Positions 8,107 through 10,438 of a stretch of DNA of 64,000 bases are shown here, one piece after another. The notes under the pieces are model-generated. The model did no database searches. It was not told the DNA's origin and saw only the letters and a program-made list of their open reading frames with translations. The translations under genes and the position numbers were made by a program. The DNA is from Methanoculleus caldifontis (GTDB lineage: Archaea > Halobacteriota > Methanomicrobia > Methanomicrobiales > Methanoculleaceae), in assembly GCF_032842345.1 (NCBI RefSeq), contig NZ_WBKO01000001.1:1426001-1490000 (forward strand), written 5' to 3'. Each line of letters begins with the position of its first letter. The stretch's first letter is position 1.

Positions 8107-8646
8107 TCACTCCTTTCCCCGTAACCCGGGCGTCTCCGTGCAGGCCGGACAGAGCATCTTCCTCTTCCGGTCCAGTTCGTCGAGCGTCCGCGGCCGGAAC
8201 ATCACGCACTCGGGGTTATCGCAGTGGTCGAGGCCGAGGAGGTGCCCGATCTCGTGCGCTCCCTCCTTTGCGGTCCGGTCGATCAGGTCGGCATCGTCCG
8301 GTCTCCTGCCGTAGTACTCGTTCCCGAAGCGGGCGGTCGAGACGACGGCGACACCGCTCGCCGGCCTTGCGAGGCCGAAGACGAAGTCGCACGCACCGAC
8401 GTAGAGGTCGCGGGAGGTGACGAGGAGCAGCGGGCCGGAGATTGCGTACCTGCGGGTGACGGTGTCCTGCAGGCGATCCAGGATCTTTTGAGCATCGTGC
8501 TGGTTGCGGTTTCTGTCGTAGCCGTCGATGAGGAGCGGGTACTCGACGAACCTCGTCTCTCGACCCAGGATCATCGTGATCGACCGGGCGACCGGGAGTT
8601 CGAGGCCTTCCGGCGCCTGACGGTCCCAAAGAATATTGATGCCCAT
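8107..8646 (-). CDS. amzA: archaemetzincin metalloprotease
   Basis: A 179-residue zinc peptidase of family M54. The extended metzincin motif HEIGHLLGLDHC starts at residue 131 and supplies three zinc ligands and the catalytic glutamate. It runs into a second zinc knuckle, C142-x4-C147-x18-C166-x2-C169 (NPEC, then MLCPAC), the hallmark of archaemetzincins. The length is typical. The physiological substrate of the family is unknown. The start codon lies 17 bases from the divergent UPF0146 start, with both ATGs inside one inverted repeat. Confidence 0.93.
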   Translation of the reverse strand: MGINILWDRQAPEGLELPVARSITMILGRETRFVEYPLLIDGYDRNRNQHDAQKILDRLQDTVTRRYAISGPLLLVTSRDLYVGACDFVFGLARPASGVAVVSTARFGNEYYGRRPDDADLIDRTAKEGAHEIGHLLGLDHCDNPECVMFRPRTLDELDRKRKMLCPACTETPGLRGKE

Positions 8647-8680
8647 TACCTAATCTCTGGGTAATGTGTCAGTATAAACA
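8644..8680. promoter_or_regulatory. palindrome joining two divergent start codons, with embedded promoter
   Basis: CATTACC (8644-8650) and GGTAATG (8660-8666) form a perfect 7-base inverted repeat around a 9-base loop. Its outer ends are the reverse-strand ATG of the archaemetzincin gene and the forward ATG of the UPF0146 gene. A reverse-strand TATA-like TTTATACT (about 8671-8678) lies inside UPF0146 coding DNA at the right distance to serve the protease gene. The forward promoter must likewise lie inside the protease gene (AT-rich AAGAATATTGAT, about 8627-8638). Motif positions are seen; promoter roles are inferred. Confidence 0.5.
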
Positions 8681-9068
8681 TATTGAACGGAGTATCGGGG
8701 AGTATATCGCCGCCCGCTATCGCCGTGCCGTGGAGGTGGGGATCGGCAACAACCCCGACGCTGCGCGGATCGTCGCGGCTGCCGGGGCCCTCGCCCTCTG
8801 CACCGACATCCGGCCCGGCATCCGGCACGAGGGTCTCACTGTCGTGACCGACGACGTCTTCGAGCCCGATCTCCGGCTGTATGCGGGTGCGGACCTGATC
8901 TACGCCGTCCGCCCCGGCGTGGAGATGGTCCCGCCGCTGATTGCGCTTGCCCGCCGGATCGAGAGCGACCTCCTGGTCTACCACCTGGGGTGCGAGATCT
9001 ACGAGGACGGCGGCGAGGTCCTGGACTGCGGCCCGGTCCTCCTCCACCGCTACCACCGCCGCCCTTAA
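8664..9068 (+). CDS. UPF0146 family protein
   Basis: A 134-residue archaeal protein of uncharacterised family UPF0146. It has a Rossmann/methyltransferase-like beginning ([23 protein letters not shown]), then [37 protein letters not shown] and a C-terminal [15 protein letters not shown]. The pattern resembles a small SAM-binding fold lacking the usual catalytic C-terminal half, but no activity is known. It overlaps the convergent rfcL stop by four bases at 9065-9068. Confidence 0.85.
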
Positions 9069-10438
9069 AAGAGCGTCGCCTGGCCCGGCGGAGGGTTCTC
9101 GCGGGTCTCTTTCGTATCGGCAGGAGGTTCTTCGTCCCCGGCCTTCCTGCCCTTCTTCTCCTTCGTGGGCGCTTTCTCTTTGCCGGACGTCTTCTTCTCT
9201 TTCGCCTTCTCCTCTTTTGCCACGTCCTTGACCACCTTCGCGGCCCGGGTTTTGTCGTGTATGAAGAGGTTCAGTTCGTCGGCGTCGAGCCCGAACTCGC
9301 GGACGTAGCCCGCCGGGTCCTGCTCGACCAGGATGCCGATCGCGGTGAAGAAGTCCTCCCGGAGAGCATCCTCCGGGATATGGGTCATCTCGCTGAGCTT
9401 CCGGGTCAGGCCTGCCCGGACCATCTTCTGTTTCTTCGATGCCCCCATCTTCTGCCAGCGTGACGGCGGCATGATGCGGCCGTGGATACCGGCCCCGCCG
9501 GCGGCGTCGGCGACGCCGAGGAGCATCACGGCGCTCGCGTACCGCCAGAGGGTGTAGTACTGCCGCCGGTAGGTCCGGCCGATATACTCGTCTGCCCTCG
9601 AGAGGCAGGCGTAGCCCTGCGCCTTTGAGGCGAGATCGGGCATCTGGTCGAGGTTCCCTTCGAGCCACTGCTCGACGGCGTCGGGGGTGTCCTCGACCTC
9701 CACGGCCATGCGGAGCAGCTCGGCGTCTCTGCGCCCCTTGAACACCCCGCCGACAAGTTCGAAGATGGTGGACCGCTCGTCCTTTGAGGAGGTTTGGACG
9801 TCGCCCGCCACGAGGCGGTCTCTCCCGATGGCCGCGGCATAGAGCATGTTCACGGCGGCCCGCATGTCGCCGCCGGCGGCGTCGGCGATCCCCTCGAGCG
9901 CGGCAGGATCGCATGCCACGCCCTCCGCGGCGCAGATCTGGCGGAGGCGGGGGACGATCGAGCGGGCCTGGAGCGCCCGGAACTGCACCGGCTCCGTGGC
10001 GGTCTTGAGTTCTTTCGTGAGGGAGTAGTAGTCGTTTGCGATCAGGATGATCGGCTGTCTTGATTCGGCGATGATCTCCACGATCGCCTTCGCCCCGCCC
10101 CGGTCCGCCTGCCCGTGCAGGTTGTCGGCCTCGTCGAGCAGGATGAGTTTCCGGCTCGCGCCGGAGAGGCTGGCCGTGGTGGACCCCGAGCCCGCCACCC
10201 GCTCGAGGGCTGCCTTGGTCCGCTGGTCGGAGGCGTTCAGTTCCACGACCTCCCAGTTCATGTCGTTTGCGAGGGCGTGGGCGCTCGATGTCTTCCCCGT
10301 GCCGGGCTTCCCGTAGAGGATGAGCGGCTTCTTCTGCCGCGACCAGTCCTGCGCCCACTCGTACATCTGCCTGACGGCCCCGGAGTTCCCCACGACGTCC
10401 TGGAGGTGTTGCGGCCTGTACTTCTCCGTCCAGTCCAT
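9065..10438 (-). CDS. rfcL: replication factor C large subunit
   Basis: A 457-residue AAA+ clamp-loader subunit that, with RfcS, loads PCNA onto primed DNA. Walker A is GKPGTGKT at residues 43-50, Walker B is ILLDEADN, and sensor 1 is in [13 protein letters not shown]. The first ~10 residues ([17 protein letters not shown]) are the RFC box. The C-terminus carries a ~60-residue lysine/glutamate-rich tail and ends in GQATLF, a PCNA-interacting-peptide-like motif seen on archaeal RfcL. Monocistronic and divergent from the marker protein 2 gene. Confidence 0.95.

Follow-up and report, generated by a model that had tools for sequence, protein, structure and literature searches.

Probable crossed core promoters nested in the coding sequences of the divergent amzA and UPF0146 genes of Methanoculleus caldifontis and its relatives

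Divergent transcription from archaeal promoters is reportedly widespread, as Warman et al. are said to have described in 2021 in work that concerns the symmetry of shared promoter elements. In Pyrococcus furiosus, bidirectional BRE-TATA-BRE promoters contain one shared TATA box between start sites that are 49 bp apart, according to an excerpt of the source (PMC6640164). The start sites of the haloarchaeal gvpA and gvpD genes are located 108 bp apart, with TATA-BRE elements at a distance of 35 bp and activator sites between them (excerpt of PMC4390858). Moreover, polymerase bound in one direction to bidirectional promoters of Escherichia coli prevents the opposite event, and competition has been described for these promoters (excerpt of PMC12825309).

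This paper describes the divergent amzA and UPF0146 genes of Methanoculleus caldifontis, which are encountered in the 64,000-nucleotide stretch of contig NZ_WBKO01000001.1 that was analysed as a whole (the window), and which are probably served by crossed, mutually nested archaeal core promoters that give rise to near-leaderless transcripts. The arrangement resembles that of P. furiosus in that archaeal core elements serve both strands from a short stretch, but differs from what the excerpt of PMC6640164 describes in having two separate boxes, which are located in coding sequence and outside start sites predicted to be 8-18 bp apart. Likewise, the gvpA/gvpD pair combines two archaeal BRE/TATA promoters with divergent genes, but these promoters stand back to back in the described part of that system (PMC4390858), whereas those of amzA and UPF0146 are predicted to cross. 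The elements of the E. coli promoters are bacterial and symmetric and their exclusion has been described, at least in the portion of the source considered (PMC12825309), whereas for amzA/UPF0146 we infer exclusion from the layout of the elements. Promoters that cross and are each nested in the opposite coding sequence were not encountered in the titles and abstract openings among the matches listed from the open-licence literature. On UPF0146 nothing was found in that literature, and transcript 5' ends of this organism were not encountered among the matches listed from it.

The two genes were assigned as follows:

8107..8646, minus strand: amzA, encoding an archaemetzincin (peptidase family M54); open reading frame with a match to PF07998 Peptidase_M54 (E 1.6e-21)
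8664..9068, plus strand: UPF0146 gene; match to PF03686 (E 2.1e-20), with a solved relative, 2k4m UPF0146 MTH_1000 (E 1.7e-6)

The start codons at 8646 (minus strand) and 8664 (plus strand) are divergent and separated by 17 bases, a spacing that had been given in a preliminary description of the sequence and that was confirmed from the open reading frames and domain matches. For comparison, a simple hexamer caller was applied to 464 kb of the genome (the window and 20 further stretches), which yielded 438 genes and 63 divergent pairs; 17 bp was the smallest positive gap among these sampled pairs and represents the unusual trait of this locus, while some of the called starts will be wrong, probably including one behind the single negative gap (-14). 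Of the 199 genomes of the order that were searched, 191 carried UPF0146, and 160 of these contributed one locus each to a survey of the gene pair. The genes were head-to-head in 157 of the 160 loci, and the three without a usable divergent pair displayed a tandem arrangement (L097), no UPF0146 match in the slice (L130) or a contig end (L191). The gap measured 14-22 bp in 146 loci, with a mode of 17 (80 loci) and a minimum of 14, and the 11 loci with a gap above 22 bp were treated separately from these close-gap loci. The start codons that had been proposed beforehand also held in the 146 close-gap loci, in which the aligned first codon of amzA was ATG in 145 and that of UPF0146 was ATG in 132 and GTG in 3. 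The head-to-head layout is thus conserved in relatives, and the palindrome that spans the gap, described below, is not.

Promoter elements were predicted with a motif derived from the upstream regions of 218 other genes of the genome, seeded with an archaeal consensus, while the amzA/UPF0146 pair was left out. The learned motif consists of a BRE-like and a TATA-like part, and its best matches exceeded 6 bits in 130 of the 218 genes, with a peak at 20-27 nt before the start codon (38/130). For both genes of the pair the best match ends 25 nt before the own start codon, on opposite strands:

8672..8685, minus strand: predicted BRE/TATA box of amzA, CAATATGTTTATAC, with the TATA core at 8673-8678; inside UPF0146 codons 3-8
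8625..8638, plus strand: predicted BRE/TATA box of UPF0146, CCCAAAGAATATTG, with the TATA-like core at 8632-8637; inside amzA codons 3-8

The amzA box scored 11.7 bits, which was exceeded in 12 of the 218 genes and reached by none of 2080 random coding 31-mers. The UPF0146 box scored 7.5 bits, a value reached by 0.34% of the coding 31-mers, and is the weaker of the two, as the best box of 103 of the 218 genes scores higher. Across the order, 142 of the 146 loci have a match above 5 bits for amzA, which is positioned 22-27 nt before the start in 132, and 98 of the 146 have one for UPF0146, at scattered positions (48 at 22-27 nt, and another 19 grouped at 19 nt), as compared to 12.5% of control coding 60-mers (n = 1152). 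The predicted amzA promoter is therefore firmly placed by the sequence comparison inside the UPF0146 coding sequence, and the predicted UPF0146 promoter is probably located inside that of amzA. A single shared TATA box between the start sites was not found at this locus; the two cores flank the gap from outside.

The codons that overlap the boxes are frozen at synonymous sites. UPF0146 codons 4-8 read ..TAA[AG]..TATTGA in 139 of the 146 close-gap loci (122 with AAA alone), the element being absent from the remaining seven, and codon 4, which encodes any of six residues, has T as its third base in all but one of the 146 loci. Synonymous freezing was counted by genus, with the remaining codons of both genes as the expectation. 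In UPF0146, Ile7 is ATT in 32.0 of 34 genera (7.8 expected) and Tyr4 is TAT in 25.0 of 25 (11.8 expected); in amzA, the corresponding values are 16.4 of 29 for ATT at Ile5 (7.0 expected), 23.7 of 24 for TTT at Phe6 (11.1 expected), and 30.7 of 34 for GAT at Asp8 (16.0 expected). The own family forms the exception at Asp8 with GAC, a codon used at this position in 34 of 145 loci, that of the window included. When third bases were ranked by freezing regardless of the residue over 172 columns, those following Trp were UPF0146 codons 6 and 4, amzA codon 6, UPF0146 codon 7, and amzA codon 8; four of these five wobble bases are inside the predicted boxes and the fifth (8623, amzA Asp8) is two bases outside, while the control columns UPF0146 14 and 19 and amzA 51 likewise had z values of 3.0-4.0. 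A general early-codon bias was considered as the source of the frozen codons and rejected: codons 2-10 of the other genes of the genome display a real bias (e.g., ATT in 41 of 287 Ile codons), which is too weak.

The frozen codons could also be the sites of another DNA-binding protein, in which case their likeness to BRE/TATA elements would be secondary. Such a protein is favored by the length and strictness of the amzA element (minus-strand consensus, weighted by genus, tTCAATAngtTTAta), which is stricter than the average box of the genome. However, both elements are the best matches to the promoter motif of the genome, at equal distance and on opposite strands, and no other strong box is present nearby, the next non-overlapping matches scoring 5.2 bits for amzA and 0.8 bits for UPF0146, which makes this explanation an unlikely one as compared to core promoters.

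Loci with enlarged or rearranged gaps provide natural controls for the core-promoter reading, and represent about three independent events. The 10 loci of genus g20 have gaps of 40-64 bp. In none of them do the aligned codons of UPF0146 retain the element, while the amzA box is kept at 26-27 nt from amzA in eight; the best match of the other two (L129 and L171) is located elsewhere. In the four loci with a gap of 40 bp, the gap itself holds both predicted boxes. The element is absent from the tandem locus L097. Inspection by eye of the g20 loci indicated that the old UPF0146 start region persists upstream of a stop codon in L116 and L123, with CATAAACATATTGAA, and out of frame in L124, and the relic GTGACGGGACATAAACATATTGAAC in the enlarged gap of these three loci looks as if it had been retained solely as amzA promoter. 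In L119, also by eye, an open frame runs across the old element, and this region may still be coding. Against the core-promoter reading, locus L185 (genome G178), with a gap of 119 bp, has kept TTTAAACATATTGAA in UPF0146 codons 4-8 despite the distant amzA start; possibly, the gap was recently enlarged by an insertion, or amzA has a long leader in this genome. Overall, the motif boxes, the frozen codons and the enlarged-gap loci give good support to the earlier proposal that each promoter would be located within the other gene.

The archaeal TATA box is positioned approximately 28 nt before the transcription start site, as given in an excerpt of the source (PMC8553660), and both TATA cores are centred 29.5 nt from their own start codons by coordinates. 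Combination of the box spacing with this distance leads to the following predictions:

8646..8651, minus strand: predicted transcription start region of amzA
8659..8664, plus strand: predicted transcription start region of UPF0146

Both mRNAs would begin at the start codon or within about five bases of it, either in the 17-bp gap or at its edge. Since each box ends 25 nt before its own start codon, both mRNAs should be leaderless or nearly so. With a gap much shorter than 14 bp, the start site would be displaced into the gene, and this would account for the minimum of 14 in the survey. A polymerase departing from one promoter would pass over the TATA box of the other, and because the TATA boxes sit outside both start sites, assembly on one promoter should exclude the other. 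It is conceivable, albeit rather doubtful, that this makes the locus an obligate either/or device, in which either the protease gene or the UPF0146 gene, but not both, can initiate at a time, and that such coupling has fixed the 14-22 bp gap and the codons across most of the order. The pair offers a clear example of regulatory DNA that appears to set the codons of two proteins together, with the enlarged-gap relatives as natural controls, and predicts leaderless starts in the Methanomicrobiales. Moreover, it provides a defined locus for studies of promoter collision in archaea, and a warning that conservation at the start of a gene need not mirror the protein.

The gap and both start codons are spanned by a palindrome, in which 8644-8666 reads CATTACC TAATCTCTG GGTAATG with a nine-base spacer:

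8644..8650, no strand: left palindrome arm CATTACC, which includes the start codon of amzA; not conserved beyond the family
8660..8666, no strand: right palindrome arm GGTAATG, which includes the start codon of UPF0146; not conserved beyond the family

The palindrome with arms that end in both start codons is present as had been described. Because the genes are divergent, CAT and ATG are given at the ends of the arms, and therefore only four further bases per arm are informative. In random pairs of start contexts from the 438 predicted genes all four informative bases were shared in 0.54%, and approximately 1.9 full arm matches are expected among the extrapolated ~355 divergent pairs of the genome; the 63 sampled pairs included one with a 4/4 and one with a 3/4 arm match. 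The palindrome is genuine yet within chance expectation. The possibility that GGTA is a genome-wide start context or translation signal was rejected, as GGTA or GGTG precedes just 4 of 334 ATG starts.

The preliminary description had suggested that one protein bound to the palindrome could block both genes at once. In such a reading, CATTACC-N9-GGTAATG would be the operator of a dimeric regulator. The site covers both start codons, the four informative arm positions all match in 24 of 38 own-family loci, and the intergenic columns are 72-100% identical in the 36 own-family loci with a gap of 17, a conservation that equally fits either constraint on the start sites together with recent common descent, or an operator. 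Conservation of the dyad between orthologous sites, as expected for the operator of a dimeric regulator, was not observed across the order: the arms are intact in only 3 of 96 loci of other families (the comparison used the 146 close-gap loci less 12 in which the aligned first codon was other than ATG/GTG or the amzA codon other than CAT), and over 31 genera the own pairs matched at 1.54 of 4 positions, no better than the 1.62 (sd 0.16) obtained by cross-genus pairing. The inspection of relatives with the same gene pair, which the preliminary description had put forward as a check, thus went against a conserved site. Moreover, a fully complementary replacement was found in none of the 14 imperfect own-family loci, and the exact palindrome is present as a single copy in the 2.62-Mb genome, as is ATTACC-N5..14-GGTAAT (reversed-pattern control, 0), so that further sites of a regulon were not found with exact or variable spacer, a search that a single-target operator would escape. 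An operator was rejected as the main explanation, given the conservation of the arms, the cross-genus comparison, the number of copies in the genome and the matches expected by chance, and has a low probability overall, while a regulator peculiar to the own family may exist. The palindrome is probably a lineage-level coincidence that covers the two start codons and the predicted start sites.

Alternatively, the arms could pair within the mRNA and mask the start codon in a hairpin. On its own, the 31-mer has a folding energy of -10.7 kcal/mol (z -4.2), and the arms are still paired in a 61-nt context of the minus strand; however, this 61-nt fold is no stabler than shuffled sequences (z -0.33), the arms are unpaired in the 61-nt context of the plus strand, and they lack conservation across relatives. 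A translational block of this kind is also unlikely if the mRNAs are leaderless, because neither mRNA would then carry both arms. Taken together, these data make the hairpin a highly improbable explanation.

In the wider phylum, outside the order, amzA was head-to-head with UPF0146 in five of 30 loci, all of family f11. Upstream of UPF0146, these five loci (L133, L138, L147, L155, and L161) share a string that reads GCATAAACA or ACATAAACA. At its other end, the UPF0146 gene of the window overlaps a convergent replication-factor-C-like gene (minus strand, 9065-10438) by 4 bp at the stop codons (9065-9068). Among such convergent pairs in relatives the overlap was exactly 4 bp in 27 of 75, and the others varied widely.
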